DNA of 19,417 nt from Dehalococcoidia bacterium. Lineage in GTDB: Bacteria > Chloroflexota > Dehalococcoidia > GIF9 > UBA5629. The notes beneath the pieces were generated by a model. The model saw only the letters and a program-made list of their open reading frames with translations, was not told the origin of the DNA and searched no databases. This document shows, piece by piece, positions 2,031 through 19,417 of this stretch (positions are counted from its first letter, which is position 1; each line of letters starts with the position of its first letter). The stretch lies in contig JAFGLP010000155.1 in NCBI GenBank assembly GCA_016927965.1, positions 1 to 19,417 on the forward strand, read 5' to 3'. A program made the position numbers and the translations under genes.

Positions 2031-2279
2031 GTGTCAAGGTACATTAACGAGTCGATAACCGTACATATCAGCAGGGAACTCAAACCTACTGCCTTTATCT
2101 GGCGCAAACGCCTTTACCGGGTAATTGAGATACTTTCGTGGTGGCATGAGCCTGCCGAGTGGTGGAACGGCGAGTCCATACGCACCCTCATGCTTGTCAG
2201 CGCCGAATGCGACAGCCCCGGCATCTATGAGCTCTGCAAAAGCAGCGCTGACTGGTCCCTGCGCCGACTGCTCGACTGA
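2031..2279 (+). CDS. DUF6504-like small protein upstream of the polymerase
   Basis: The 82-residue protein starts with GTG after a GAGG site. It resembles the small DUF6504 proteins known from actinobacteria: P..FIWR.RLYRV..IL..WHEP..WW near residues 18-45, then a hydrophobic strand, and G.YEL.....W.L..LLD at the C-terminus. The family's function is unknown. From memory, members often lie next to error-prone polymerase genes, as here: 19 bp separate its stop from the dnaE-like ATG and both share one promoter. The many aromatic residues and Trp pairs suggest a small folded beta domain; no catalytic motif is recognisable. The C-terminal half overlaps a spurious upstream extension of the polymerase frame. 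Confidence 0.75.
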   Translation: MSRYINESITVHISRELKPTAFIWRKRLYRVIEILSWWHEPAEWWNGESIRTLMLVSAECDSPGIYELCKSSADWSLRRLLD

Positions 2280-2298
2280 TACTTATGAGGGCCGCGCC

Positions 2299-5200: not shown

Positions 5201-5430
5201 TACGCTACCAGACACCCCCCACACGTACCGGCAAACGCGTCGTCTATATCATCATGGAGGACGGCACAGGGGTAGCCGACGTGACCGTATTCAGTGATGT
5301 GCAGGAGAAATGCGGCAGGTATCTCTTCCGTTCCGGCTGGCTGGAGGTGCAGGGCAAAATCCAGCGCCGCGGCCCCAAGTCCCTCTCGATCATAGCTGAC
5401 GATGTAAGGCCGCTGAGGAGGGACAGCTAA
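2299..5430 (+). CDS. dnaE: DNA polymerase III alpha-type polymerase, DnaE2/error-prone-like
   Basis: This 1043-residue family-C polymerase extends primers in DNA synthesis. Domains in order: PHP (from residue 3, HLHVHS...DG; ALTDHN; GAEIGI), palm with catalytic aspartates in PDIDLDID (378-385) and KMD (Asp533), fingers, helix-hairpin-helix region, and a C-terminal OB domain from about 961 (KIAGSV...MEDGTG). It is shorter than replicative DnaE (about 1160) and close to DnaE2/ImuC; the compact tail and small upstream partner favour a lesion-bypass role. No imuA or imuB is visible. The ATG at 2299 is chosen because the family starts at MSFVHLHVHS; the frame stays open back to 2125 but that part is not homologous. 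A GAGG site precedes it. A repeat-like insert lies at about residues 893-904. A replicative role cannot be excluded. Confidence 0.92.
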   Translation: MSFVHLHVHSYYSFHDGATSPAALVEKACHFNMPALALTDHNRLTGAIRFYDLARKAGIKPIIGAEIGIEGNYHLTLLCKDIRGYSNLCRLLTTMHCSRRDGRPSATREMLRRYNEGLLALSGCRQGEVPFLLSKKEPERAACASAFYREVFGDDFFIELNHYPSRQGTPLCYILSSFAREQGIPSVATNNVHYLSMQDYRIHELLNAIGLIVPVTQLHGPRTVEQHFKSPAEMERLFRDFPGAAAMTLEIASRCNLELELGKPRFPGFTLPAGETSPYFLRKLAYAGAEKKYGSLSPEMTTRLEMELSTIEILGFCSYFLVVWDIVRWARARGIRLQARGSAVDSMVVYTLDISNADPIHYDLLFERFMHPLRDEPPDIDLDIDRRRRGEVRDYIYHKYGAENVSCVATINTYMARGALRDVGKALQIPPETIEKACKGIHWLSATKLVEKSATLPELKDNTVYRRPELQEFFRLCAAIDGFPKHLSVHLGGLLIGEGRLSDLVPLEVSSGGDIISQYDKDDIERLGLVKMDLLSLPTITVIEDAVRSIKESRGLAVDIDSIPRDDPAPFEMLRSGRTIGVFQLESPAQREMAGRLLPQTFNDIIVTLSLVRPGPLKSSMDKVYLARRHGQEPVSYTHPHLERALSETLGVILYQEQVLRVAHDLAGMSYAGADGFRRAMTHDRTSGEMEKMRLTFINCATRNGVKQDIAEEVFEHLAAFAAYGFCKAHAAAYAILSYQTLWLKCHYPAEFMAAVLSNQPMGYYPPRVLAADARRFGVTVLHPDVNRSSGHYTVENGAIRVGLGQVRGISRETIASIMSERQSRPFSSLRDFTMRTSARQAVVENLVKAGALDTLGSRKGMLAEIPALLQLKRGNGGERSELFTDNPASQMCHCEVAQRPWQSSAPNNIDVTPQLKKERHLNERELLSLDLSTHPLDFCKLENGYTRLKDLLPLPARQHIKIAGSVIRYQTPPTRTGKRVVYIIMEDGTGVADVTVFSDVQEKCGRYLFRSGWLEVQGKIQRRGPKSLSIIADDVRPLRRDS
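4975..5010. repeat. Hairpin repeat-like element inside the polymerase gene
   Basis: The segment reads TGTCATTGCGAGG..., and ends ...GTGGCAATCT. ATTGC (4979-4983) pairs with GCAAT (5004-5008), and GGTCGC (4986-4991) pairs with GCGGCC (4995-5000) around a GCA loop. From memory, dispersed elements starting with TCATTGCGAG and ending in GGCAATCT are widespread in bacterial intergenic regions. Here one is translated in frame as a linker between the polymerase core and the OB domain. No second copy was found in the window. Confidence 0.55.
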
Positions 5431-6656: not shown

Positions 6657-7442
6657 ATGAAGGTAATTTACAGCTCTGCACTGCTACTTATTACATTTTG
6701 CACGGTGTTCTACACAGCCTGTGTCAGCCAGGAATATCCCGTAACTGAAAACTACGAGGAGACACAGTATAAGAGTGAGCTGACCAGCGAAACTTACACA
6801 GAAAATCAGACCTCTCTGCTTACCGATTCAGGTGAATTTGCCCTTGCTTCCTATTTCAAATGGAGTTCGTCCGGCCTGAGCTTCTCCGGTATTCGCAATG
6901 TCTATTACTACGGTTACGAAATACCGGAGGCAGACTTATATGACGATATACGCCTGAGGGTCTCGGTCTGGCAGCAGCTCCAGCAGGAGACAGCCAGAGT
7001 CAGCATATTCGATATGAGCGAGGCAGGGCACATCGAATCTCCCGAGCCAACGTCCGAAGGTATGGCGCCGGAAGAGCTGCCGCAAAGCTACCTGATTACA
7101 GGAAGCGCATCAATCACATGGCTTAAATCAGCCAATTCCATAATAAACCACGCTAAATTTTTAGGTGGGACAGGTTACCTCTGGTCAAAACCCGCTGACC
7201 CCCAGATTTTTTATCTTGATGCAGGAAAGGCCAGCAGCATCGCCGTCATCGTCAGCGGGCCCATTAATAAATGGAACGGCAGTGTCAATCTCGATGTCCT
7301 CTGGAACCACACCGCCACCAGTCGCCATACCGTAACCAAAGAGCGACAGGTAACCAGGCAGGTCCCTTATCAGGTCGAACATCAGAGGACCGTATATAAA
7401 GTAAAACAGGTCCCCTTCTGGGAAATTGTATCTTCCCCGTAG
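6657..7442 (+). CDS. Lipoprotein of unknown function, paralogue 1
   Basis: The 261-residue protein has a lipoprotein-type signal peptide with Cys22 (FYTAC; the -3 position is atypical), so it probably sits on the outer membrane face. I recognise no named family. A Tyr/Thr/Glu-rich stretch follows the Cys (about 27-55), then a beta-rich domain with WSSSGLSFSG...YYYGYEI (about 70-90), VSIFDM, FLGG and VIVSGP, and an extended C-terminal tail of alternating Val/Gln/Arg ending in QVPFWE. The next gene, 12 bp downstream, encodes a paralogue with the same landmarks in the same order. Together they form one transcription unit between the promoter at 6605 and the terminator at 8354. The ribosome binding site is weak. 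Confidence 0.8.
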   Translation: MKVIYSSALLLITFCTVFYTACVSQEYPVTENYEETQYKSELTSETYTENQTSLLTDSGEFALASYFKWSSSGLSFSGIRNVYYYGYEIPEADLYDDIRLRVSVWQQLQQETARVSIFDMSEAGHIESPEPTSEGMAPEELPQSYLITGSASITWLKSANSIINHAKFLGGTGYLWSKPADPQIFYLDAGKASSIAVIVSGPINKWNGSVNLDVLWNHTATSRHTVTKERQVTRQVPYQVEHQRTVYKVKQVPFWEIVSSP

Positions 7443-7454
7443 GTCGGCATACCT

Positions 7455-8300
7455 ATGAAATCACATCATGTTAAGGAGATAAGGCCAGAACGGGCGAAGC
7501 CTGCATCCGCAGCAATTGCCTGCACGGCGGCGCTATTGCTTGCTTTGCTCGTTTCGTGTGTTACAGTCGAATCTCAGTCACAGGAACCGTATTATTTAAC
7601 AGAATATACGACTGAAAACCGTACCGAGCTGTATACCGAGACAGTACCTGTGATAAAAACTATAACGCATGAAGAGAACCTGCAGCCGTATATAATATGG
7701 AGCAACCCCCAGCTCGTTTTTAACAACCATAAGTCCTTATGGTACTATGGCTATGACCTCTCGGGCTTTAAAAACGCTGCAGAGCAAAAAATAAAGATAC
7801 TCTTTTTTAAACAGCAATTTTATGAATACCTGGCTGTCAGCGTTTTCGATATGCACCGGCGCGGCCAGATACTGGCCCCCCCTTTAATCTCAGCTTCCGA
7901 TAATATCTCAGCGATAGCTGTATCCCAGAACTGGATAACCTCCAAGAAGGAAATAGGAACATACAATACTTGGTTCGGGATGGCTAATATGAAGCTCGAC
8001 TTTGCCCGCTTCCTGGGCGGCAAACCAAATATATTTTTGAACAGCGCAACCACATATCCCATAGAGCTGGATACCCGCAACTGCACGGAAGTGGCCATAC
8101 TTATCAGCGGGCCGACAGACCCTCAAAATTGCAGATTCAGCGCATTGCTGGTATGGGAAGAATCCGTCATCGAAGAGGTGACACGCACAGCCGAACGCTC
8201 CATACCGGTACAGGTAGAGCGGAGCGTCCTCAAACAGAACACCGTGATACAATCACGCCAGGTACCATTCTGGGAATCACTTTTAAACACCAATCCCTGA
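7455..8300 (+). CDS. Lipoprotein of unknown function, paralogue 2
   Basis: The 281-residue protein has a basic N-terminus, a hydrophobic core and a good lipobox (LVSC, Cys35). It is followed by a Y/T/E-rich segment (EPYYLTEYTTENRTELYTE), then the landmarks shared with its upstream neighbour: WSNPQLVFNN...LWYYGYDL, VSVFDM, NWITS, FARFLGG, AILISGP, and the tail ERSIPVQVERS...SRQVPFWE. The duplication is clearly old, because most other positions differ. The repeated V-x-V-E/K-R pattern of the tail resembles a long beta hairpin or stalk. No function can be assigned; a surface assembly role, perhaps with its paralogue, is a guess. The gene is co-transcribed with paralogue 1. Confidence 0.8.
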   Translation: MKSHHVKEIRPERAKPASAAIACTAALLLALLVSCVTVESQSQEPYYLTEYTTENRTELYTETVPVIKTITHEENLQPYIIWSNPQLVFNNHKSLWYYGYDLSGFKNAAEQKIKILFFKQQFYEYLAVSVFDMHRRGQILAPPLISASDNISAIAVSQNWITSKKEIGTYNTWFGMANMKLDFARFLGGKPNIFLNSATTYPIELDTRNCTEVAILISGPTDPQNCRFSALLVWEESVIEEVTRTAERSIPVQVERSVLKQNTVIQSRQVPFWESLLNTNP

Positions 8301-8353
8301 TCTCCTGCAATCAGCAGCCATACCTATTGGGCAGCCATACCTGTCAGAATGCG

Positions 8354-8392
8354 CCATTCGGCTCATTTTATGAGCCAAATGGTTGCTTTTTT
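8354..8392 (+). terminator. Intrinsic terminator of the lipoprotein operon
   Basis: GGCTCAT (8360-8366) pairs with ATGAGCC (8370-8376) around TTT. After one C-A mismatch the stem continues with CCATT/AATGG (8354-8358 with 8378-8382). Six T follow at 8387-8392. Confidence 0.8.
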
Positions 8393-8442
8393 GACCCCGA
8401 TAGCTAATAATAATTACATGTCATCTGAGTTCAGGTGGCAAT

Positions 8443-8799
8443 ATGCAGTTAAGGATTGGGGGTCAACCGATGAGGACCGCAACACTCAAATATCTGGATC
8501 GCGGGCACATGTTGTTTGTGCTTCTGTTGATGGTGCAGTTTCAGTTCTGGGATGGGTTGATAACACAGGTTTTCGTCAGCAACGGTTTGGTAAAAGAAGC
8601 AAACCCGCTCATGATGCCGTTGATATCGGAAGGCAGTTTTCTGGCTGTTAAATTGCTGGGGATAGCAGCTGTACTGCTGTTGCTATGGCTTATTTACACA
8701 CGTTTCCCCAGGATGGCACTGAGTGCCGCTTCCTGTATCTCCGCGTTTTATATTATTGTAGTCACCTGGAATTTTACCGTCCTTTTTTACCCCTGCTGA
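8443..8799 (+). CDS. DUF5658-like small membrane protein
   Basis: The 118-residue protein has three predicted membrane helices (about 23-43, 63-85, 92-114). Its middle shows the pattern GLITQVFV..GLVKEANPLM.PL...G.FL.VKLLG that I associate with DUF5658 membrane proteins, a family of unknown function. The conserved polar EANP between helices 1 and 2 is the family hallmark. The ATG at 8443 follows an AGGTGG site; the Met at residue 10 (8470), preceded by a G-run, is an alternative start. It stands alone, after the terminator of the lipoprotein pair and convergent with the HD-GYP gene, whose stop is only 36 bp away. It has no evident link to the archaellum cluster. Confidence 0.75.
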   Translation: MQLRIGGQPMRTATLKYLDRGHMLFVLLLMVQFQFWDGLITQVFVSNGLVKEANPLMMPLISEGSFLAVKLLGIAAVLLLLWLIYTRFPRMALSAASCISAFYIIVVTWNFTVLFYPC

Positions 8800-8809
8800 A
8801 GCAGGTTTT
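8792..8809 (+). terminator. Weak terminator at the convergent junction
   Basis: CCTGC (8792-8796) pairs with GCAGG (8801-8805) around TGAA, followed by four T. The hairpin overlaps the stop codon of the DUF5658-like gene. It is short, so efficiency is doubtful; no better terminator is visible for either of the two converging transcripts. Confidence 0.35.
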
Positions 8810-8835
8810 GCGGGCGGTTGTCCTTTATTTCATGG

Positions 8836-10626
8836 TCAGGTCATGGCGATTGCCAGTTCCCGCTTCTGATAATCTAATTCAAACTCATCCCTTTCAATAA
8901 TGTCGATAAGAACATCGACCACCCTGGCATCGTAGCGCTTTTCCCTGCCACTCTGCAATTCTTCGATTATCTCAACCTTTTTCCGGGCAGGGCGGTAAGG
9001 CCGGTGAGAGCCCATGGCTTCCACTACATCGCAAAGGCCCAATATCCTAGACTCGAGGCTCAACTGGTTGCGCCGGATACCTTTGGGATACCCTGAACCA
9101 TCCAACCTTTCGTGATGGTTCTTGACCATCTCGATAACGTTCGGAGGAAGGTTCATGCCCTGAAGCATTTCGTAACCTTGCATAACATGAGATCTGATCA
9201 GCCACCATTCCTCGTCAGTAAGTTTCCCCGGCTTAGAAAGGATAGTATTCGGTATTGCAGCCTTGCCGATATCGTGCAGCAGAGCGCCCACCTGCAGCCA
9301 TTCAATTTCTTCCTCTTTTAGACCAAGCTTCTCTCCCACGAAAGCAGCCAGGCCGGCCAGTCTTTCCTGGTGGGTCACGGTATAGGGATCCACAGCAAAC
9401 ATCGCCTTTGATATCATCCTGGTCAACTGCACAAATTGTTCTTTTATCTGCTTTCCCGCATTCTGCCTTTCAATAGTCTGTGCCAGCATGGAGACGGAAG
9501 TAGCAAGCAGGTTGATTTCCACCGGCTTGAAACCGCTGGAAATTATGGGTTTTTGGAATCCTACCACTCCTGCAAATTCAGAATTGACCATAATGGGTAA
9601 GATCAGGCTGGATGAATCATCATTGCAGGTGCTGACAATGGTACCTTCCTTTTTGGAGAGCTGCATCATATCTCTGGCAATGCCGTCGCCATCGATCTCT
9701 CCTCCGCCGGATTTACCTGTGCCGCTGCTTTTATCATTATCATCGGTATAACTTACATAGACCCGTGAATTCTCCTTCTCCACGGCGACGGCATGCAGGC
9801 CAGGCTCTAACACGGCCCCGGTATCATGGTCTCCACCTTGATTGTCTTTATCCAGCAGTATAAAAGCATTATTGATTTCCGAAGTATGGCACAATATCTC
9901 CAGTATTTTTTTATAAGGAATGTCTTTCTTTGTTTCCAGCAGTATCTGGCCTACTCTGGCAATGGCCTTGAGATATTTCTCCTTTTCTTTTTGGGCCTTT
10001 TCCACTTCTTTGCGCTCGGAAACGTCCCGCGCTACTCCATGAAAACCAATCAGCTCCCCGTCTCTATTTTTGACAGGCATAAAACTAAATTCAATGGGGA
10101 CCAGAGACCCGTCTTCCTTCATAAGGTCCACGTATAAATGCCTGCCGGCAATTTCCTTGTAACGCTTCAACTGGTCGGGGACAAATTTATTATATTCCGG
10201 GGAAAGCAGGCTTCCGATGCTATTGGTAAGTACCCTATCAACAGTATAGCCGCTGATTTCTTCAATTGCTTTATTTATAAATGTGAAGTTCCCTTCCCTG
10301 TCCAGCGTGAAAATTATATCCTGAGTGGTATCAATAATATGCTGGATCCTTTTTTCCGCCCTGGTTGCCTGTTCGCGCTGCAACACCAGCTCATTATGTA
10401 TTTTCAAAATTTCGCGAAAGCTGAAGTGCACCAGTAAAAAAATAACCGACATGCCGAATATCCAATCCAGCAACATCTGCCAGGCTGTAATTGCCATACC
10501 GGTCCCCCAAAACATGTAGTGGACTATCTGCAGGGACGCCAGGGTAGCGCCGGCCATCAGCAGTATGAGCGCTTCTAATTGTCGAATCTGTACTTTGGCA
10601 TCTTTCCTTGCAATCTCAACGGCCAT
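8836..10626 (-). CDS. Membrane PAS-GAF-HD-GYP protein (putative c-di-GMP phosphodiesterase)
   Basis: From the chosen start the protein has 596 residues: two membrane helices (about 18-37 and 48-70), a coiled coil, a PAS domain (about 93-200), a GAF-like domain (about 220-385) and a C-terminal HD-GYP domain. The catalytic motifs are intact: HDIGK (HD at 451-452), HH..LDGSGYP (504-514) and the family's DP.T..H..RL. HD-GYP enzymes hydrolyse cyclic di-GMP, the second messenger that sets motile versus sessile life, so its place as last gene of an archaellum operon suggests motility control by a PAS/GAF-sensed signal. The ATG at 10626 has AAGGAG 6 nt upstream; an in-frame ATG at 10677 (17 residues longer, weaker site) lies 6 bp after the previous stop and is an alternative. 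Enzyme activity and substrate are inferred. Confidence 0.9.
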   Translation of the reverse strand: MAVEIARKDAKVQIRQLEALILLMAGATLASLQIVHYMFWGTGMAITAWQMLLDWIFGMSVIFLLVHFSFREILKIHNELVLQREQATRAEKRIQHIIDTTQDIIFTLDREGNFTFINKAIEEISGYTVDRVLTNSIGSLLSPEYNKFVPDQLKRYKEIAGRHLYVDLMKEDGSLVPIEFSFMPVKNRDGELIGFHGVARDVSERKEVEKAQKEKEKYLKAIARVGQILLETKKDIPYKKILEILCHTSEINNAFILLDKDNQGGDHDTGAVLEPGLHAVAVEKENSRVYVSYTDDNDKSSGTGKSGGGEIDGDGIARDMMQLSKKEGTIVSTCNDDSSSLILPIMVNSEFAGVVGFQKPIISSGFKPVEINLLATSVSMLAQTIERQNAGKQIKEQFVQLTRMISKAMFAVDPYTVTHQERLAGLAAFVGEKLGLKEEEIEWLQVGALLHDIGKAAIPNTILSKPGKLTDEEWWLIRSHVMQGYEMLQGMNLPPNVIEMVKNHHERLDGSGYPKGIRRNQLSLESRILGLCDVVEAMGSHRPYRPARKKVEIIEELQSGREKRYDARVVDVLIDIIERDEFELDYQKRELAIAMT

Positions 10627-10683
10627 ATACTTCTCCTTGCGTGGCATGTTTTTCCGTTCCGCTCTATGCTTATACATCAGTCA

Positions 10684-12459
10684 TCACCTTTGCGTCCATT
10701 CATTTTCCGTGCTGTAATCAATGCCGTCACCAGCGTAACCTTCATCATCGATATCATCTTCATCCAGATTTCTGAGCTTCTTGATGGTATGACCTATCCA
10801 GAAGAACATGAAACCGAATAATACCAGTCCCAGAGCGATCAATACCCACTTAACCCACTCCGGCATGTTATTTACAATGGTTATAAAGGTATGCCCTTTG
10901 TAGAAAGAAGAGGCCAGAGACCACTGGCCTTCATTTTGGGCACGGTCTATAGCTTTAACGCGCCAGAAATACGGCTTCTCCCTCCCGGGCAGCATCTTGC
11001 TGTCCTCAGTAATATCGATATAATTGGCTACCACATTGGCCTGCGACATTATCACATTGGTGAATTGGGCGTCATCAGCAACCTCAAAAGTATAGGTTAC
11101 ACCGCTGGGATCAGAAACCGGGCCCCATTCAAAATGAATGTCTTTGATAACCCGGTCGCCGTCGGCCGGCAACTGCGTGACTGGCGCCATTGGCGGTGTT
11201 GATTCAACTGTGAAAGTGACCTTTTGCGTATTTATGCCGTCAGAGGCCACCACGCTATGTGCGCCGGCCCTGCTAACCGGTATTTTAAAACTCTGTGTAA
11301 AGCTGCCCTGGTCATGTACCGTGGTCCCTTCAAGCTTAATGTTGTCATAAGTTAGATTAACGGGAAAACCCGGCCTGAACCCTGTCCCCTGTATACCTAC
11401 CTGCATACCTATGAAACCGGTTTCCGGGCTGATACTCATAGTAGATGATACCTTTATATCTTTAAAACCCTTATTTGTCATATCATCCACTTTTATCCTG
11501 TGTGTACCGTCACCGCAGGGAGGGATTTTTATGATAGCTGTAAATCCACCGTTTGAGCCGGTCTGCACGACGCCGACCTCCTGATCGTCAAAGTAGGCAC
11601 TCACATCGGCAACAGCCCCAAAACCGGTGCCGACAATCGTCACGGTACTGCCAACAGCTGCATTTTCCGGCGAAATACTAACCTGCTGCCTTACGTTAAA
11701 CGGAGCAGTAGCTGCATTACTATTGGAATCCTGCATTTTTATATTGTGATTTCCCCGGGAACATGGCGGGATCACCAAACGCATATTCAGACACTGGCCT
11801 TTTTCATCCGCCTCGCCGGTCACTATTTTTTCATCGTCGACTCCCAGGTAAACGAGTTTGCTGGCAGCAAATCCATAACCATTGACGGATATAACATCGC
11901 CGACATACCCGCTGACTATGTCATCCTGCAGGTTTATAGAAGGATTAAGTTTAAATCCAGCGGTCAGTGTATTGGTACCGTCATCAGCCATGATGATATA
12001 CCGGCCGGCCGGAAATATATCGACTTCAAAATCCGCTACGGCGTAACCTGAGGAATCGGTAGTGGCCTTTGTAGCAACATATGTTTTGGTGCCGACTGAA
12101 GTGCCGGTACCGATCGTAGTGCCGGTGCCGAATGTAATAATTACCTGTTTATCGGCGGTATAATTAAGGATCTTTACGTAGACAGTTGTCCCCACAATAC
12201 CCTCGGCAGGCAATATCTCGATACTGGGAGAAGTCCCCTCATCGTCTGCAACGGCAGCAGGGAAAGAAGCAGCGAGAGGACAAAACAGCGTTAATCCCAC
12301 AACTGCAAATATCAGCAAGAGCCTGATAACAATGCAATGATCAGGCGTGGGGCTGCGCCTGGAGGCAAAACTCTTCCTAATACCTGCAATACTATTAATT
12401 AAGCAACAGAAACATTCAAGAATGGCTTCCGCTGCAATATTTATTCTCTTTGTCGCCAT
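10684..12459 (-). CDS. Surface protein with IPT/TIG-like repeats, Fn3-like domain and C-terminal anchor
   Basis: The 591-residue protein starts after a perfect AAGGAGGT site. It has a long basic N-terminus (1-41), a signal-type hydrophobic segment (about 42-65), then four IPT/TIG-like modules (about 76-170, 171-257, 258-340, 341-418). Each opens with a pattern like I.P..G.VG..V.I.G.GF. A Fn3-like module follows (about 423-521, ending YFWRVKAID...GQWS), then a membrane helix (about 537-558) and a short acidic cytoplasmic tail. Most of the protein is therefore outside, anchored at the C-terminus. It is not a known archaellum subunit. Its place in the operon, 11 bp after the acidic membrane protein gene, suggests an envelope-spanning anchor or bushing for the filament; adhesion is an alternative. 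Confidence 0.85.
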   Translation of the reverse strand: MATKRINIAAEAILECFCCLINSIAGIRKSFASRRSPTPDHCIVIRLLLIFAVVGLTLFCPLAASFPAAVADDEGTSPSIEILPAEGIVGTTVYVKILNYTADKQVIITFGTGTTIGTGTSVGTKTYVATKATTDSSGYAVADFEVDIFPAGRYIIMADDGTNTLTAGFKLNPSINLQDDIVSGYVGDVISVNGYGFAASKLVYLGVDDEKIVTGEADEKGQCLNMRLVIPPCSRGNHNIKMQDSNSNAATAPFNVRQQVSISPENAAVGSTVTIVGTGFGAVADVSAYFDDQEVGVVQTGSNGGFTAIIKIPPCGDGTHRIKVDDMTNKGFKDIKVSSTMSISPETGFIGMQVGIQGTGFRPGFPVNLTYDNIKLEGTTVHDQGSFTQSFKIPVSRAGAHSVVASDGINTQKVTFTVESTPPMAPVTQLPADGDRVIKDIHFEWGPVSDPSGVTYTFEVADDAQFTNVIMSQANVVANYIDITEDSKMLPGREKPYFWRVKAIDRAQNEGQWSLASSFYKGHTFITIVNNMPEWVKWVLIALGLVLFGFMFFWIGHTIKKLRNLDEDDIDDEGYAGDGIDYSTENEWTQR

Positions 12460-12470
12460 AATGACCTCCT

Positions 12471-13145
12471 TTATTTTGAGCGCATACCGTTGAGAAACTC
12501 AGATACCTCACTGCCCAGTTTTTCTATATTCTGAACATCCACATCAAATAAATTGGCCGCAAGATCGGATGTCGCAGAATCCTCAGCCTCCTCAGACTCA
12601 AAGACACTCATTAAATCTATCTCTTCCTCTTTGGGGGCTTCTTCCTCTTCAGTAAGCGTGTCCAGCGAGGGTAAATCAGGCAAATTCATTTCACCGTTTT
12701 CCTGAGCGGCGTCATCCGACGGAGCCTCCTGGGCGGTAGCTTCCTGGCTATTGTCTATACCTGCAGCAGGAGTCTCCCGGGCTTCTTCATTCGGGCTTTC
12801 CCCCATACCCTGAGGCTTATCTTGGGTTGCCGAAGACACCTTGCCATGGGCAAGCAGTCGGTTATCCGGCATATCCTTGAGTTCCAGGAGCTTTTCACCC
12901 TTGGGCCCTTTCTTCTTTTTTTCCTTTTTATTCTTCGTATTTTTCTTTCCTTTGTCCTGTTCACCAGATACCGGAGGCAGTTGCTTGGGGACTTGTCCGG
13001 CAGCGACCGTCGCCAGAGCAGCACGCTTCCTGGACTTGGACCGCTTCGGCTGCATGCTCCTCATCAGCAGCCACATGATGCCAAAAACGCACGCAGAGGC
13101 GACTACGATAATTAGCAGATATATGCCGACTTCGTAAAATCCCAC
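12471..13145 (-). CDS. One-pass membrane protein with acidic cytoplasmic domain
   Basis: The 224-residue protein starts with GTG, 6 nt after AAGGAG. A single membrane helix (about 6-28) is followed by a strongly basic stretch (PKRSKSRKR), which by the positive-inside rule puts the long C-terminal part in the cytoplasm. That part has a Lys-rich run (about 67-85), a long acidic low-complexity linker, and a short conserved-looking end (NLFDVDVQNIEKLGSEVSEF) likely to form helices. I recognise no family, and it is not one of the standard Arl proteins. It lies 22 bp after arlJ and 11 bp before the surface-protein gene, so it probably belongs to the archaellum machine, for example as a membrane-tethered docking protein. 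Confidence 0.8.
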   Translation of the reverse strand: MGFYEVGIYLLIIVVASACVFGIMWLLMRSMQPKRSKSRKRAALATVAAGQVPKQLPPVSGEQDKGKKNTKNKKEKKKKGPKGEKLLELKDMPDNRLLAHGKVSSATQDKPQGMGESPNEEARETPAAGIDNSQEATAQEAPSDDAAQENGEMNLPDLPSLDTLTEEEEAPKEEEIDLMSVFESEEAEDSATSDLAANLFDVDVQNIEKLGSEVSEFLNGMRSK

Positions 13146-13167
13146 TACTTGCTCCTTCGTTCAATGC

Positions 13168-14757
13168 TTAGCTGGGCGCCGCCAGGCTGCTGAACATTCC
13201 CGTAACCAGCCCGGGCACAAATACCATGGCAGCGCCGGTAATAATCATCATTATGGAGAGATAGAATAAATACTTGTAACTATGGCCACCCTCTACGACC
13301 TTGATGGCAGCCGGATTGACCAGGGTAAGCATGAGCAACATGGCCGTCGACATCATATAAAGTATCTGCAGCTGGCCATCCGAATTGGAAAAAAATGCGA
13401 ATGTAGGCAAGGATGCTATAGCGTTCATGCCCTCACCGGATGTTGTTCCCGACATCTTCTGCATGGCCTCCGAAAAATTCCACATTATCTGGTAAATGCC
13501 CACCAACAGCAGAGCCATCGTTGCGTGCATGGTAGCGCACAGATAGGAGAACCCTGACGATACCGCTCTTCGCTTGCCCCGTAAAAGAGCAATCTTCATG
13601 GCAAACATCGATGTCTGGCTGCCCACAGCCCCTGGATCGCCGCCCACAGCAATCCCGTCCCAGAAAATACGGACGCTGCGGTTTACCTGTTCGCTGCCGG
13701 ATTCACAGACAAATTTCTCCCAGCAAAGTTCCGGGCGGATGCCGAATTTAAGGGCATTATTCATCCTTGAGATAGGCTGCTTTAAAGAACCCAGTGAGCC
13801 GAAATCAAGCCTGCTGATAGCTTCAGTTACCGTTGTACCGATCACCTTGGTGATACCGCCCAGCGACCTGATAAATCCGGCAATGTCCTCATCGCTACGG
13901 TCGATCCGCCTGTCATCCCACCAGATCAAAATACCCGGTGGGGCAATAACCAGGCCCAGTACAAGGATCGACCATCCCAGACCTGCATTCATTAGAAACA
14001 ATATCGGGATTAACACTAAAGCCAGGGGTATCGACACATAAAAAAGGGCTGTCCTGCTTAATTCCTGCGCCCTGGATGTTTGCGGTAGAGAATGCGTCTT
14101 GATCTCCTTGGGCGCCGCACGGTACATTACCCAGACACCCAGCAGGGTTGACATCAGCATTAGGAAGGTAAGGACAGCTATAAAGCTGGGCTGCATAGGG
14201 AAAATCAAAATTGATACGACGCTTATCACCACAACCAGTGAAGCGGATATAATCAGCGCCGTAAAAGCGTCCGTCCACTTACTCAGGCTTTCTACCTGCC
14301 GCTCATATTCATCACCATAGGTCTCTCCCATCACTTCCGACTCGCGTTTTAAAAATAACGCCTGGTCTTCACCCGAGGCCATGGCTCCCGACATGCGCAA
14401 CAATAGTGCTTTAGGCTCGGCCTCCTTGGTTTTCTCGCCCACCATGCGGCATGCTTCCGAGTAATCGTAATTAAGCTTTTTCGCCAGGAAATGCACTTTC
14501 CTTAAATATACCGAGGACATAAATCCAAGCCTCGAAGCATATTCAAACATGAGTGACCTGGGCAGGTCAGACGTTGACAGCGCATACATATAGGTTAGAT
14601 GGCAAAACAGGTCTGCCTTCATCAGGTCAGTATTCAGTTTTATCTGCTCTTTGGCAGGGTTCTCCAGAGAAAAGCTTCTCTCTTTAGAAGAGTCCTTCCC
14701 GTTGAGCCTTTGCAAGGACTTTAAGGAGATCATAAAAGTTTTTAACTCCCTGTTCAT
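13168..14757 (-). CDS. arlJ: ArlJ (FlaJ) archaellum platform membrane protein
   Basis: The 529-residue protein is the polytopic platform of the archaellum motor, homologous to GspF/PilC-type T2SSF proteins. It carries two T2SSF-like cytoplasmic regions (about 50-160 and 290-390) and at least seven hydrophobic segments (near 165-190, 195-215, 238-285 (two), 405-430, 455-490 and 500-525). That is the long archaeal FlaJ layout and not the three-helix pilus type. ArlI is expected to dock on its basic cytoplasmic loops and turn ATP hydrolysis into assembly and rotation. With this ATG the gene overlaps arlI by 74 bp. A Met at residue 9 (14733), preceded at a distance by GGGAG, is an alternative, so the start is uncertain. 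Confidence 0.9.
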   Translation of the reverse strand: MNRELKTFMISLKSLQRLNGKDSSKERSFSLENPAKEQIKLNTDLMKADLFCHLTYMYALSTSDLPRSLMFEYASRLGFMSSVYLRKVHFLAKKLNYDYSEACRMVGEKTKEAEPKALLLRMSGAMASGEDQALFLKRESEVMGETYGDEYERQVESLSKWTDAFTALIISASLVVVISVVSILIFPMQPSFIAVLTFLMLMSTLLGVWVMYRAAPKEIKTHSLPQTSRAQELSRTALFYVSIPLALVLIPILFLMNAGLGWSILVLGLVIAPPGILIWWDDRRIDRSDEDIAGFIRSLGGITKVIGTTVTEAISRLDFGSLGSLKQPISRMNNALKFGIRPELCWEKFVCESGSEQVNRSVRIFWDGIAVGGDPGAVGSQTSMFAMKIALLRGKRRAVSSGFSYLCATMHATMALLLVGIYQIMWNFSEAMQKMSGTTSGEGMNAIASLPTFAFFSNSDGQLQILYMMSTAMLLMLTLVNPAAIKVVEGGHSYKYLFYLSIMMIITGAAMVFVPGLVTGMFSSLAAPS

Positions 14758-16462
14758 TCAGTTTTTCAAGTATCTTGGCACGCCTTTCTACTTCCGCATA
14801 AATACGGCGTTTTTTATGCGGCGGGATCCCCAGCTTAGGCGCGATCTTGTGCTCCAGCAAATAGCTGTTGCCGTCACCGGTAAAAAGGAATACATCAGTA
14901 ACAGAGTCCCAGCGGAAGACTTCTACAAATGAAAATGATTGGGAGACGGGATCGTAGCCCACTATCTCGTTTATACTGGTCATACGCCTGCCCACCTTGC
15001 CGTTGGGCAGTTTAACAGCCTGCTGGATGAGGCAGATATTCAGGTTGTCCATATAGGTCTTCGGGACGTTGATAGGGCTGCCTGTGAGACGCTGAATAAG
15101 CCTCTCAACTGAAGCAGCGTGGAATGTAGCCATGACCGAATGGCCCGTCTGCATAGCCTGAAAAGCAATGGCGCCCTCGGCGCCGCGGATTTCTCCCACG
15201 ATTATTTCGTTGGGCCTCTGACGAAGGGCGGCTTTGAGCAAATCGAACATGCCTACCCCAGCATCCCCTTCCTTGGTGGAGGATACCACCTCCCTGATCC
15301 AGTTCTGATGCGGGACCTGCAACTCCGGTGTGTCTTCGATCGATACGATCTTGGCATTGGGATGAATAAAGGTAGTAACCGCGTTTAATGTCGTGGTTTT
15401 TCCCGATGCGGTTTCCCCACATACAAACACATTCATACCCTCGCCTATGGTGAGTGAAAGATATGCCGCCATCTTGTAGTCCAGGGTGTTCATATCTATG
15501 ATTTCCATGATCGAAAGCGGTGTCTCGCTGAATTTCCTGATAGTAAAGTTGGAGCCGCGTTTGGACACATCGGTGCCGTAGACAATATTGATACGAGACC
15601 CATCGGGCAGCGTGGCATCAACTATCGGGCTGTGAACGCTGACTGGTTTCTTGATACGCTCAGCCAGCCTCATAACAAACTGGTCAAGATCCTCAGTCGT
15701 GGGAAAATTGACCACTGTCTTCAGGCTTTTAAAAATCTTATGCTCCAGAAAGATAACGCCCATCCCGCTGCAACTGATGTCTTCCACGTACTTGTCATAG
15801 ATGATGGGGTCAAGCATACCCATGCCGACCTTGTCCCTGACAATCAAATACTTGATTTCTCGCAACTGACGCGGCGTGACTTCAAGCGGTTTGACATGAT
15901 TGTTGACGCTGATCCTTTCCAGCAATCCCAACCCGGTTTTACCATTTCCGTTACCGTTTTTCTTCTGCCCATTTCCATTGTGGGGTATTGCCATACTACT
16001 GTTTCTCGTGACGCATATTTCGGAAATACACTTCAAAAAGGCCTCGCGTTTTTCATCCATGCTCTTGACCGCAAAATCGCCCAGCCTGTCGGACATCTCC
16101 AGCAATTTTTTCTCTACTTCCAGCATCAAGCGATCAATATTTGACAGCATGACCGGCTCAATGGGTATATAGGTATTTCTGCCGTCTCCGTGGTCGTACA
16201 GTATATGGGTAAATACTCCTTCCTTGACAGGATAAATGAGATTAGGATTGGGGGTACCGCCGATGTTGCGGTCAAGCTTGTCATAATACTTGGGCATGCC
16301 GTAGTCATCTATGGGAATCATTTGCAGATATTCCAGCAAATGCGGGTTCTTCTGCACTACATCCTGAGCCTGCTTTGAAAGCAGGCTCAGTAGATTGCAG
16401 GTCTCCGGTTTTTTCCTGTCCCTGGGTTCCGGAATTTTGAAGGGTAGAAGTATTTCAGGCAT
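14684..16462 (-). CDS. arlI: ArlI (FlaI) archaellum assembly and rotation ATPase
   Basis: The 592-residue secretion-superfamily ATPase is the cytoplasmic motor of the archaellum. The N-terminal domain has the ArlI-type pattern NPHLLEYLQ.IP...YGMP.YYDKL and PNLIYPV..GVFTHI (about 38-90), then YIPIEP. The C-terminal RecA-like domain has Walker A GETASGKTT (349-357), and LRQRPNEIIVGEIRGAE with the Walker B Glu at 424, followed by the His box region. The N-terminus separates it from pilus PilB/TadA-type ATPases. A low-complexity Asn/Gly/Lys insert (near 163-175) divides the two halves. A GAGG site lies 8 nt before the ATG, and 21 bp separate it from arlH; the coding end overlaps arlJ. Family-level identification is firm. 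Confidence 0.95.
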   Translation of the reverse strand: MPEILLPFKIPEPRDRKKPETCNLLSLLSKQAQDVVQKNPHLLEYLQMIPIDDYGMPKYYDKLDRNIGGTPNPNLIYPVKEGVFTHILYDHGDGRNTYIPIEPVMLSNIDRLMLEVEKKLLEMSDRLGDFAVKSMDEKREAFLKCISEICVTRNSSMAIPHNGNGQKKNGNGNGKTGLGLLERISVNNHVKPLEVTPRQLREIKYLIVRDKVGMGMLDPIIYDKYVEDISCSGMGVIFLEHKIFKSLKTVVNFPTTEDLDQFVMRLAERIKKPVSVHSPIVDATLPDGSRINIVYGTDVSKRGSNFTIRKFSETPLSIMEIIDMNTLDYKMAAYLSLTIGEGMNVFVCGETASGKTTTLNAVTTFIHPNAKIVSIEDTPELQVPHQNWIREVVSSTKEGDAGVGMFDLLKAALRQRPNEIIVGEIRGAEGAIAFQAMQTGHSVMATFHAASVERLIQRLTGSPINVPKTYMDNLNICLIQQAVKLPNGKVGRRMTSINEIVGYDPVSQSFSFVEVFRWDSVTDVFLFTGDGNSYLLEHKIAPKLGIPPHKKRRIYAEVERRAKILEKLNEQGVKNFYDLLKVLAKAQREGLF

Positions 16463-16483
16463 TATAAATCCTCAAAATCAGCA

Positions 16484-17209
16484 TTAGGCCCTGGCCCTGC
16501 CCAGCGGCATGACGCGCATCCCGATTCCCGGGTCTACGTCGAAGCTCATAATATTGCCGGTATTCTTATCTGCGCCCCTTACCTTGGCAACCTCGAGAAC
16601 TTTGACCAGCTTATCTCCGACTTCTTCAATCCTCAGCCGGAAATGGGCATCGCAGGCAGAGCGGATGCGAATTAAGACCTGTTCGTCGAAAGCATAGGTA
16701 TGCGTAATATTGATAATTGTGCGGCCTCCGTCACACAGCTTCTTGCATTGTTCGAAGTAGTCGATTATCTGCTCGACGGAAGTATGCGCTATCACCGGCG
16801 TTAAAGAGTCGACAACAATGAGCTTATAAGTTGGATACGCCATGATCCCCGAAATAATTGTGTCAAATGTATTGGTCGCCTTCATTTTTGACGCTTCAAC
16901 CTGAAAAACCTTTATCCAGCCCAGCAGCAGCGAGTCTAATATACCCAGGCCCAGGCTTTCCATCTGTGTATGCATACTCTTAACGGTGTTTTCCGTGGTA
17001 AAAAGCAAAACCCTGTGCCGGGCATTGAGAGCGCCCCACATCATTTGCTGTGACAGCACCGATTTACCGGCATCGGACTGCCCTTCTACAAGAGTCAACG
17101 ACCCAACGGGGATCCCTCCACCAAGCCTCTTGTCGATCTCATTGTGCCCCGTACAGATTATTTCGTCTTGCGACCGTTCTTCTTCGTCAGATGATAGTAT
17201 CCTTGTCAT
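16484..17209 (-). CDS. arlH: ArlH (FlaH) KaiC-like ATP-binding motor component
   Basis: The 241-residue RecA/KaiC-like protein matches ArlH in length (usually about 230). It has Walker A GQSDAGKS (43-50), Walker B KLIVVD (129-134) followed by SLTPV, and the LGGGIP.GSL..VEG entry typical of KaiC-like folds. In archaea ArlH forms a ring that binds ATP, interacts with ArlI and may be a regulatory switch; ATP turnover is usually low. An AAGGGG site precedes the ATG. It sits between arlF and arlI in the same order as in archaeal clusters. KaiC-type circadian proteins are excluded by the single domain and the operon context. Confidence 0.93.
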   Translation of the reverse strand: MTRILSSDEEERSQDEIICTGHNEIDKRLGGGIPVGSLTLVEGQSDAGKSVLSQQMMWGALNARHRVLLFTTENTVKSMHTQMESLGLGILDSLLLGWIKVFQVEASKMKATNTFDTIISGIMAYPTYKLIVVDSLTPVIAHTSVEQIIDYFEQCKKLCDGGRTIINITHTYAFDEQVLIRIRSACDAHFRLRIEEVGDKLVKVLEVAKVRGADKNTGNIMSFDVDPGIGMRVMPLGRARA

Positions 17210-17242
17210 CTAATCCCCTTATCAAATTTGCCCTTTCACTTA

Positions 17243-17741
17243 TTACCAGCCAAATGTAATTTCACTCTGGGCCCCATTGGGAGTGACGACTGTAACCAGG
17301 TTTGTCGTGTTCTCGGTGGCCGCCGGTGACATCGTAATGACTATCCACATGTCCTCACCCGGATCAAGAATATTGGGCTGATAAATTTCCGAATCGCCCT
17401 GGAAAAAAAAAGCCCCCGGTCTGCCATCCTGGAGTCGCTGCTGAATAAGGTATCCAGATGGTATCCCCATCCTCATAGCGCACGATTACATCCCATGCGC
17501 TGAAGCTGCTCAGCGCCGTATTGCCATCATTGTGGACATACAGCTTGATCGTTGCCCCGCTATCGGTAGTTGTGCTGTTCTCACACATTATGGCAGTGTT
17601 AATAATATCCCTCGACAGCGTCTCTTCTTCCCGCAATGCATCCGAAACCGTATTGATTGCATTCAGCGCAGTCATTGAGATGGATAATGCGCCAATAATC
17701 AAGAGAGCAATGCAAACGATTGTGATAGCGAAATTTTCCAT
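17243..17741 (-). CDS. arlF: ArlF-like archaellum anchor protein, frame broken at a T9 run
   Basis: The first frame (17741-17364, 125 aa) starts after AGGAG with an N-terminal membrane helix (about 5-25), then an exported beta domain with GATIKLYVHNDGNTALSSF, typical of ArlF/FlaF. After GWQTGGFFF it runs into the apparently random end PGRFGNLSAQYS. Another frame, ending at 17243, continues the beta fold: QGDSEIYQPNILDPGEDMW...VTPNGAQSEITFGW. The switch lies at nine T in the mRNA sense (plus 17403-17411); deleting one T gives a continuous 165-residue protein. ArlF caps or anchors the archaellum stator outside the membrane, binding the S-layer in archaea. The break may be a sequencing error, a real mutation, or polymerase slippage. 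The start overlaps the ArlG-like gene by 43 bp. The F/G assignment is by resemblance. Confidence 0.8.
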
Positions 17742-18217
17742 GGCACTCCTATACTGGTAGTATAAATATCCTGGTCAGAAATACCGTTCGGTAGAACGAT
17801 TTTGAAATAATATGAACCTGAAGGCGTCGATGTTAAATAAATAGTCAGTTTTACAGTAGCCGTCGGTCCCCATTCCGTACTATTTTCTATGCTGTAATTC
17901 CAGCATGGCTTGGAAGTGCCCGTCTCATCGTAGGGTATGCGGGCAAAGTTACCTTCAAGGCCGAAAAATACGTCGCTGCTGCTTATGCCGCCGATACGTG
18001 ATGCGCCTATATTCTTAATCCATATATATACGTCACTGGCATTGTCCGAAACCTCGATAATTTGCACCCGGCACCTGATCCTGTCGTCCAGCTTACCACT
18101 GGCATCGGCAATGGCGCCTGTGCTCTGTGTAATCGCAGGAAAAATGGCATTAATGACCACCATGCAGCAGACGATGCCGCCGATGATCAGCAGCACGGTT
18201 ACCAGGACTTTATCCAT
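17699..18217 (-). CDS. arlG: ArlG-like archaellum anchor protein
   Basis: The 172-residue protein has an N-terminal membrane helix (about 4-27) without an archaellin-type processing site and an exported beta-sandwich-like domain. The pattern DRIRCRVQIIEVSD...VYIWIKNIGASRI...DVFF matches ArlG/FlaG (polar strand, VKN.G turn). ArlG forms a filament with ArlF that anchors the motor in the envelope. The ATG lies inside the end of the upstream gene (ATGGATAA, 8-bp overlap), so translation is probably coupled. Here the ArlG-like gene precedes the ArlF-like one, the reverse of the usual archaeal F-G order, if the two are assigned correctly. The 43-bp overlap with the next gene makes the last 14 residues less certain. 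Confidence 0.8.
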   Translation of the reverse strand: MDKVLVTVLLIIGGIVCCMVVINAIFPAITQSTGAIADASGKLDDRIRCRVQIIEVSDNASDVYIWIKNIGASRIGGISSSDVFFGLEGNFARIPYDETGTSKPCWNYSIENSTEWGPTATVKLTIYLTSTPSGSYYFKIVLPNGISDQDIYTTSIGVPWKISLSQSFALLS

Positions 18218-19136
18218 GTGTGGACTCCTTCATCATCGAAAGCACTGAAAGCAGCGCATTATCCTGTATTTGCTCACCGCTCATCAGGCTTTCAAGCTGC
18301 GCCAGCGTAGCTAGATAATCGGTTGCAGTCGGCGACTGCGTGCTGTTTGATTCGTAGCGTGAAATCCGTACCATCCGTATTAAGACATCTTTAATATTAT
18401 CCGGAATACGTCCCATAGCATTGGACATCTCTACCAGCGCTTCTGTCCTATCTTTTCCCAGCTTACCGGTGGCCTGGTCGACCCACTGTGTCAGACCCGC
18501 AATGACTACCAGGTCGGACCGTGTTCCCCTTATCAAAGTAGCAGTCCCTTTCTTCTTGCCATTTTTAGGCAAGAACGCCCTGGTATTTATCAGTATGTCC
18601 TGTTCCTCGATTTCCTCCTCCTCTGAATCGAGTTCCTCTTCAATGGCAACCCCACCTTTCTTTTTTCCGCGGAGTTTTTTATTTTTCTGAGGCTGCTCAT
18701 CTTCAGCTTCATCTTCAGAAGCCATATCACCCAGTCCAGGCATCTCAACAGACGGTCCCGGTCCGGTAGAAAGTCCCGGCCCCGGATCTTCATTCATAAA
18801 ACCGGCAGGGGCCATACCGGGCGTCTCAATATCCGGCTGCCCGGATAGATCGGCAAACGGCTTATCGAAAGAAAGGACGGCATCTGCCATGTCAGTGTCC
18901 GCAGAGGCCAATGCAGTATCGCCGGCCAGGTCGATTTCATCCGGTGGTATTTCACGTCGTTTTTCCTTTTGCTCGGGGCTAGCTCCTGCGGGTGGCGTGT
19001 TGGCAACCATATTGAAGTTAAAGGGGTTTTGTATGTTGAGGTACTGTTCCCTGATATCGAGCAGTATTGTTTTAACCTCGTTTTTCAGGATTTTTAGTTC
19101 CTCTTCCATCAGTTTTATTCTTTGTTCTTCATTCAT
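18210..19136 (-). CDS. arlCDE: ArlC-ArlD/E fusion, archaellum switch component
   Basis: The 308-residue soluble protein joins two known pieces. The N-terminus (1-40) is a coiled coil ending in the ArlC-type motif LLDIREQYLNIQNPF. A long disordered linker follows (about 45-200), Pro/Asp-rich, with a Lys-rich and a Glu-rich patch. The C-terminal domain (about 203-308) has the ArlD/E pattern: hydrophobic helix, LTQWVDQATGKLG, EAL..M...GRI...IKDVL, then YLATLAQLESL. In Euryarchaeota ArlCDE form the cytosolic ring that links the motor to CheY via CheF. An AGGGG site precedes the ATG. It is separated from archaellin by a 96-bp gap with a stable hairpin, and its stop overlaps the ArlG-like start. 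Confidence 0.85.
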   Translation of the reverse strand: MNEEQRIKLMEEELKILKNEVKTILLDIREQYLNIQNPFNFNMVANTPPAGASPEQKEKRREIPPDEIDLAGDTALASADTDMADAVLSFDKPFADLSGQPDIETPGMAPAGFMNEDPGPGLSTGPGPSVEMPGLGDMASEDEAEDEQPQKNKKLRGKKKGGVAIEEELDSEEEEIEEQDILINTRAFLPKNGKKKGTATLIRGTRSDLVVIAGLTQWVDQATGKLGKDRTEALVEMSNAMGRIPDNIKDVLIRMVRISRYESNSTQSPTATDYLATLAQLESLMSGEQIQDNALLSVLSMMKESTHG

Positions 19137-19155
19137 GCTATTACCCCTTTTTCTC

Positions 19156-19185
19156 AGCGGGCACCTGCCGGAGCAGGTGCCCGCT
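19156..19185 (-). other. Very stable intercistronic hairpin after archaellin
   Basis: Bases 19173-19185 pair perfectly with 19156-19168 (13 bp). In minus-strand RNA the loop is UCCG closed by C-G, the extra-stable UNCG tetraloop; in plus-strand RNA it would be CGGA. The downstream sequence on the minus strand is A-rich, not a T-tract, so it is a poor intrinsic terminator. It more likely protects the archaellin mRNA 3' end or reduces read-through to the motor genes. Confidence 0.65.
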
Positions 19186-19232
19186 TTTCACATTACCACC
19201 TGTAAAGCAGTAGCTTTCTCACTTACTTTTAC

Positions 19233-19417
19233 TTAGTGGAGATCCATGATCGTGTCAAGGGCGGCGGGCAGGGTCCTCTGGATGGTTACAGTGGAACCGA
19301 GGGCCGGCTTGAGCTGCAGGGAGAAAACTTCGTTGGCGGTCAGGTTGTCGCTCAGCGTCATGCCGGTGCCGAGATCAGTGAGATCAATGGTGATTTCAAA
19401 CTGCTCGCCGGGCTCCA
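19233..19417 (-). CDS. arlB: Archaellin (ArlB/FlaB), C-terminal fragment
   Basis: The gene enters the window at its right edge; 61 codons and the stop TAA (19235-19233) are visible. The fragment reads EPGEQFEITIDLTDLG...LTANEVFSLQLKP...GSTVTIQRTLPAALDTIMDLH (three quoted pieces). This matches the archaellin C-terminal beta domain: F.ITVDL, L..N..F.L...P..G, TI.RT.P, and the terminal ...MDLH. Archaellins polymerise through an N-terminal helix, cut off here, after cleavage by a prepilin peptidase, to form the rotating filament. It is upstream of arlCDE on the same strand, as in archaeal clusters. Whether more archaellin copies precede it cannot be seen. Confidence 0.85.
   Translation of the reverse strand, partial: EPGEQFEITIDLTDLGTGMTLSDNLTANEVFSLQLKPALGSTVTIQRTLPAALDTIMDLH

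Follow-up and report, generated by a model that had tools for sequence, protein, structure and literature searches.

How can a bacterial archaellum motor obtain a complete ArlF, a protein of its stator, from a gene whose reading frame is interrupted? The question is raised by contig JAFGLP010000155.1 of GCA_016927965.1 from a Dehalococcoidia bacterium (GIF9; UBA5629), whose 19,417 nucleotides (nt) form the window analysed here and carry an archaellum (arl) gene cluster on the minus strand. An earlier sequence-only reading described a complete motor cluster in a bacterial genetic setting and mentioned homologues in some Chloroflexota. The gene set is indeed present, but a full-length ArlF protein can be obtained only via a change of frame at a run of nine T (T9), which that reading overlooked. 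Moreover, a bacterial archaellum as such is already known in print, Chloroflexota archaella having been published before (PMC12488501, PMC10444878). The comparisons below indicate that arlF is probably expressed through a conserved programmed frame change, for which slippage of RNA polymerase is the likeliest mechanism; the slippage, the two products and a role in stoichiometry are inferred.

The frame break in arlF

The gene and its presumed slip site occupy the following positions.

17243..17741, minus strand: arlF in two frames, 499 nt, encoding 165 amino acids (aa) when the reading skips one base at the T run
17364..17741, minus strand: arlF in plain reading, with a truncated product of 125 aa; the 46 of 46 protein clusters of the clade are truncated alike
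17403..17411, minus strand: T9 run, the presumed slip site, common to all six DNA copies examined

The site reads GGC TTT TTT TTT CCA GGG, and the T9 run is the point of frame change. Frame 0 ends after 125 codons, and the homologous protein end continues in the +1 frame until the stop codon at 17243. When one base is passed over, the 165-aa product is gapless at the site against intact relatives (GFFFQGDSEIYQP versus GIYYNGQPEIYEP of P0168). The sources used for comparison, 81 in number and 1.39 Mb in total, comprise loci kept by ArlI (the best 80 of 568 candidate matches). Four of them, L001, L003, L004 and L090, show the same break at T9 as the window; L002 has T10 through a substitution beside the run, with unchanged length, and all six of six DNA copies are broken. 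The arlF copy of L002 additionally has a 29-nt gap ahead of the run, around 4850; this gap is absent from the close cluster P0130 and is perhaps an assembly fault.

The first part of ArlF, searched against about 5.8 billion proteins, gave 53 matches. All 46 of the 46 clade clusters (60-100% identity), among them the cluster of the window itself and some near the DNA copies, carry FFF (in 43 cases at residue 111) and reach a stop 4-15 codons later, while the seven more distant matches (42-48% identity) are 165-166 aa long and lack FFF. In addition, four separate open reading frames (ORFs) were called for the C-terminal tail, all with FFFQG. The run might instead change its length at DNA replication and so switch arlF on and off, since it is a homopolymer within a gene of a surface machine and a Bifidobacterium pilus switch of this kind is listed in print (PMC9187656). 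Such phase variation is highly improbable, as both forms would be expected and in-frame alleles were found in 0 of 46 clusters and 0 of 6 DNA copies.

Within the 30-genome family of G003, arlF occurs in seven genomes, five of them broken and two unbroken, namely G005, where the site was read and the gene is intact, and G008, with an open frame of 199 codons (judged by frame, not by site). Searches of 198 and 30 genomes yielded G007 as the sole further broken copy, and one scan of viral contigs for more copies gave a single distant ATPase. No second arlF was found, with one match each in G001, G003, G004 and G007, although a very divergent copy would escape such a search; the two G002 matches are fragments of a single gene. 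The break apparently had a single origin.

The five complete copies (L002 was excluded for its gap) are 499 nt each and align without gaps. Variable sites by codon position number 48, 43 and 93 of 110 before the run (frame 0) and 21, 15 and 46 of 52 after it (+1 frame). Behind the run, the +1 frame is free of stops in five of five copies, while frame 0 has 2-5 stops and the third frame 1-6, and mean amino-acid identity is 0.39 in frame 0, 0.70 in +1 and 0.44 in +2. Just behind the run, at positions 339-400, the differences by +1 codon position are 56, 24 and 90 (sums over 10 non-independent pairs of the same five copies), and therefore the shifted frame is used from the run onward. At the level of sequence, the conservation of the arlF tail in the shifted frame, and that of the frame change itself, is shown by these comparisons.

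A sequencing or assembly error, a pseudogene or a gene truly split in two would agree with the truncated genes given by gene callers and with the four separately called C-terminal ORFs, and an ATG lying 13 nt behind the window's early stop would suit a split. However, the same break recurs in differently named metagenome-assembled genomes (MAGs) and in cluster P0148, whose longest contig is 2.47 Mb, and the +1-frame pattern of positions 339-400 begins right behind the run, ahead of that ATG. Together these explanations are barely credible; sequencing error was also set aside in its own right as unlikely, given the six DNA copies, the 46 clusters and the synteny.

Probable slippage and other possible routes to full-length ArlF

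The net shift required is +1 (or -2). A -1 ribosomal slip would lead into the third frame with its stops and lower conservation. A programmed +1 ribosomal frameshift, with the peptidyl-tRNA-Phe moving from UUU to the overlapping +1 codon (UUC or UUU), would give the same 165-aa product; the net shift agrees, re-pairing is possible in six of six DNA copies, and L001 has AGGAG shortly before the run. Nevertheless, this AGGAG was seen (by eye) in L001 alone, no stable flanking structure appeared in 30 folds (z -1.35 to 1.86 against single-base shuffles), and nine Ts are unnecessary for such a shift. The A site likewise holds neither a stop nor a uniform codon, being CCA in five copies, TCA in L002 and, across the 46 clusters, a codon for Pro in 38, Ser in 6, Thr in 1 and Arg in 1, the last two being clusters P0138 and P0142. 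Thus, the uniform A-site codon and the common Shine-Dalgarno-like stimulator or stable RNA structure of prfB-like sites are lacking here, and a ribosomal +1 shift is considered rather unlikely.

With the codon behind FFF variable, the constant feature across copies is the run, which is as expected for RNA polymerase slippage. Roseiflexus, one of the bacteria with a slippage-expressed gene, is a member of the Chloroflexota. Slippage on 9A/9T is known in bacteria, and the genes described as expressed in this way include Thermus dnaX (A9), Shigella spa13, spa33, mxiA and mxiE, and Roseiflexus IS630 (PMC1088944, PMC5009743). Such genes share with arlF a run of at least nine A or T and two products per gene (both arlF products being predicted), but arlF is a motor stator gene and its slippage is putative. 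Two features that mark slippage genes were found in arlF, namely a conserved run of at least nine A/T (six of six DNA copies) and conserved coding in the other frame behind it.

The intact homologue P0168 was folded (mean predicted local distance difference test score, pLDDT, 81), giving a helix at 2-48 followed by eight strands (51-59, 64-71, 84-88, 94-97, 106-113, 129-136, 146-152 and 158-164). The best solved matches of the model are FlaG and FlaF, and a profile of intact ArlF homologues finds FlaF by sequence (2e-10). The gene thus resembles the ArlF/FlaF stator protein (4p94, 5tug) in profile and in model, but in plain reading the clade gene lacks strands 6-8. The slip site aligns to residues 111-113 of P0168, the end of strand 5, and the short form would therefore lack strands 6-8.

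Based on these features, RNA polymerase would slip on T9, and transcripts with 8 (or 11) Us would be translated into full-length ArlF of 165 (or 166) residues, while the templated 9-U transcript would give the short form, ending 4-15 codons behind strand 5 of the eight-stranded beta domain. In archaea, the ArlG filament is capped by two ArlF together with two ArlG, which also link it to the S-layer (PMC8978795). Considering that a cap is needed in fewer copies than a filament, slippage could keep ArlF low relative to ArlG, the share of slipped transcripts setting the amount of ArlF cap relative to ArlG filament. The short form might be discarded or might act as a blocker.

The run is rare where it occurs in arlF. 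It is the only homopolymer of at least 8 in the window, L001, L002, L003 and L004, and A or T runs of nine or longer are present in 14 of the 81 sources, five being the arlF run. Genome-wide, T9/A9 matches number 3 in G001, 3 in G003, 5 in G004 and 3 in G007 (1.8-2.5 Mb), one per genome lying in arlF, and G008 has none; the 10 other runs of these four genomes and their ORFs revealed, by eye, no gene common to the genomes. An A9 run was also noticed in L126 near 1415 (G001), near the beginning of what looks by eye like prfB. Phe is encoded by TTT 78 times and TTC 46 times in eight minus-strand genes, and the five T9 copies use TTT for all 15 Phe codons. A terminator function of the run was rejected, as it is not among the 17 terminator-like sites.

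Several points weigh against programmed slippage. The support is drawn from DNA and protein sequence; DNA was seen for six copies, and in the other clusters the T run is read back from FFF. Restoring the frame requires the loss of one U or the gain of two. The rarity of such runs is also not universal among the kin, as G005 has nine T9 matches yet an intact arlF. Finally, the run could be a frozen accident tolerated through slippage rescue: one base gained in the clade ancestor, enough ArlF rescued by slippage, and a short product without a role. Rescue at homopolymers is known, with Buchnera and Blochmannia named in PMC5009743, and a single origin would be enough, since L005 (genome G005), sister in the ArlI tree, has an intact arlF. 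Yet the loss of one T would mend the frame and was seen in none of the 46 clusters or six DNA copies, and the four clade genomes counted have few other runs of this length, which makes an accident decidedly unlikely and leaves programmed slippage as the preferred reading.

No recoded archaellum gene was found in the literature on archaellum frameshifts, Chloroflexi slippage and pilin or stator recoding (titles and abstract starts, with few subscription papers and no supplements). The word "frameshift" is absent from PMC12488501 and PMC10444878, as is "hypothetical" from PMC12488501.

The archaellum locus in its bacterial setting

Besides arlF, the cluster contains the following genes.

19233..19415, minus strand: arlB (archaellin), final 60 codons with the stop, truncated by the end of the window; full-length archaellins are its best matches
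18210..19136, minus strand: arlCDE, 308 aa, assigned by homologues and place
17699..18217, minus strand: arlG, stator filament protein, 172 aa; NCBIfam ArlG 2.8e-7, below the curated cut-off, found in 62 of 81 sources
16484..17209, minus strand: arlH, KaiC-like ATPase; FlaH subfamily 272.8 bits, solved FlaH 8e-31
14684..16462, minus strand: arlI, motor ATPase, 592 aa; archaellum-motor equivalog 681 bits, solved FlaI 1e-134
13168..14757, minus strand: arlJ, membrane platform; ArlJ model 1.6e-125, below the curated cut-off

The order arlB-CDE-G-F-H-I-J on the minus strand is that of the arl2 type, and ORFs and family models bear out the arl genes in the order that the sequence-only reading had given. 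ArlI exceeds the NCBIfam archaellum-motor equivalog cut-off (681 bits versus 550) and ArlH the FlaH subfamily cut-off (272.8 versus 194), while the ArlH equivalog is missed (197.9 versus 215). ArlJ (419 versus 570), the first part of ArlF (34.6 versus 110) and ArlG (30.7 versus 110) also fall below their curated equivalog cut-offs, yet in each case the own arl model is the best NCBIfam family; with ArlH included, the own model ranks first or second among the named families. Given the order, tree and fold, the scores of ArlH, ArlJ, ArlF and ArlG below the cut-offs are taken as divergence. The first ATG of arlJ overlaps arlI, and the true start may be later. No Pfam or NCBIfam match was obtained for arlCDE, and its identity follows from homologues in 59 of 81 sources (30 of 37 among archaeal loci) and its place in the locus.

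The archaellin claimed earlier is supported by archaellin matches, but only its last 60 codons lie in the window. The best matches of this fragment are full-length archaellins in L004, L002, L001 and L003, and these relatives have a hydrophobic N-terminus with a GLETA stretch, which by eye may be a class III signal peptide and lies outside the C-terminal 60 codons of the window.

In the ArlI tree (81 rows plus one distant TadA-type outgroup on a very long branch, built by a quick method, with an unsure root), a branch with a Shimodaira-Hasegawa-like approximate likelihood ratio support of 99 separates the 42 Chloroflexota rows from the rest, and the window groups with L001-L005. The window ArlI thus lies among Chloroflexota archaella and not with PilB/TadA, as the earlier claim required. 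By ArlI identity, the closest of the kept loci are L002 (85%), L001 (84%), L003 (80%) and L004 (78%), all from Dehalococcoidia or Chloroflexi MAGs. In L001 and L003 the flanks hold homologues of TIG, HD-GYP, tm118 and the two paralogous genes in the same order, and a TolB homologue lies in the flank of L003 too, the DnaE-type gene being extra in the window. Considering this synteny and the tree, the contig belongs to a bacterium and nothing in it points to a chimera, and an archaeal or chimeric contig was rejected as unlikely. The earlier assignment of an archaellum cluster to a bacterium was right: judged by sequence, the locus is real and bacterial.

This setting rests on synteny and the ArlI tree rather than on the bacterial promoters and terminators that the sequence-only reading had adduced. 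Promoter-like sites number 14 in 8000-19417, not above the 15.7 (standard deviation, sd, 4.1) of shuffles, and terminator-like sites 17 in the same interval, slightly above 11.1 (sd 3.0); neither is therefore evidence for a bacterial setting. Shine-Dalgarno-like stretches do precede most arl genes, as had been stated. No Rfam match at gathering scores and no ribosomal marker was found in the window.

The DnaE-type polymerase gene (2125-5430) sits between genes that adjoin each other in L003, which has no insert; it scores above the superfamily cut-off and below the DnaE and error-prone equivalog or subfamily cut-offs. Two tandem paralogous genes of secreted or lipoprotein-like products (6657-7442 and 7455-8300) are likewise paired in L001 and L003. 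Among the other loci, the L021 contig is labelled Candidatus Fermentibacteria, and its ArlI is nearly identical to that of Methanosarcinales L023 and L032; it is probably misbinned.

According to PMC12488501, 243 of 3,780 Chloroflexota genomes appear to encode archaellum machinery, Litorilinea aerophila swims with an archaellum, arlG precedes arlF in Chloroflexota, and the system was transferred from Methanotecta-like euryarchaea. The window shares with the Chloroflexota archaellum of L. aerophila and SAR202 (PMC12488501, PMC10444878) the gene set, arlG before arlF (arl2), the single locus, an ArlI clade beside Methanotecta archaea and a prepilin peptidase outside the locus. It differs in that its arlF needs a frame change and in that its eight kin genomes gave no PilO match.

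Genes behind arlJ and a possible motor anchor

Three further genes follow arlJ on the same strand.

12471..13145, minus strand: p224, directly behind arlJ; one N-terminal membrane helix, a charged linker and a short conserved C-terminal motif
10684..12459, minus strand: Ig/TIG membrane protein, 591 aa; TIG 4.5e-6
8836..10677, minus strand: PAS and HD-GYP domain protein, membrane-bound; HD_5 1.2e-34, PAS 5e-13

The sequence-only reading had counted 8836-13145 into the motor cluster, but this part holds no known motor gene, only the PAS/HD-GYP, Ig/TIG and small membrane proteins.

No Pfam or NCBIfam name was obtained for p224. A profile built from 5 sequences in four rounds found 41 of 7,248 ORFs at E <= 0.01 and no shuffled or reversed ORF. 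Of these 41, 34 begin near the end of arlJ, at most 126 nt ahead of it or 175 nt past it. The remaining seven comprise four in L048, L051 and L062 (without an ArlJ call), one tandem copy (L015), one longer ORF (L052) and one in another gene order (L067). Forty of the 41 belong to Chloroflexota sources and one to archaeal L014. From this pattern, p224 looks like an undescribed arl-linked gene and possibly an archaellum component. Moreover, 35 of 38 archaeal-type loci (L021 included) have, by place and by eye, an ORF immediately after arlJ whose C-terminus bears a similar motif. The archaeal and Chloroflexota profiles match weakly (hhalign probability 74, P 2.8e-5); the archaeal profile finds 4 of 32 Chloroflexota loci and the Chloroflexota profile 0 of 35 archaeal ones. 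Sequence and position suggest that the genes behind arlJ in both groups are likely to form one common family.

How an archaellum is held in a peptidoglycan envelope is the issue common to this locus and to L. aerophila, for which PilN/PilO are proposed as the link to peptidoglycan, with members lacking them stated there as open (PMC13319060). With one Pfam model, which was positive in 2 of 14 control genomes, PilO was detected in none of the eight kin genomes. CheW is present in seven and a prepilin peptidase in all eight of them; in G003, the contig with arlI also carries CheW-domain genes and one peptidase at a distance of about 18-21 kb from arlI. Instead of the PilN/PilO anchor described in PMC13319060, an Ig/TIG membrane protein near arlJ is the candidate here. 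Its model (pLDDT 76, predicted template modelling score, pTM, 0.45) has about five beta domains, a C-terminal membrane helix and an acidic tail. A structure search with it returned generic Ig-like chains alone (template modelling score, TM, <=0.21 of the query), and therefore no family is claimed. The protein is encoded next to the arl genes in 6 of 81 sources; as these include L005 and L008, whose arlF is intact, its presence does not depend on the frame break. Judged only by its topology and place, it may be a motor anchor in genomes without detected PilO.

Taken further, the ratio of full-length to truncated ArlF, set through a selected T9, might control ArlG capping and anchoring in this one Dehalococcoidia group, with the Ig/TIG protein as a new anchor partner; this is a tentative proposal, possible though short of probable.

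Plain gene calling truncates arlF in every one of the 46 clade clusters, and completeness screens may misjudge such loci. As the archaeal product of arlF caps and anchors the stator, a recoding site in this gene would offer a direct handle on the anchoring and tuning of the motor in a bacterial envelope.

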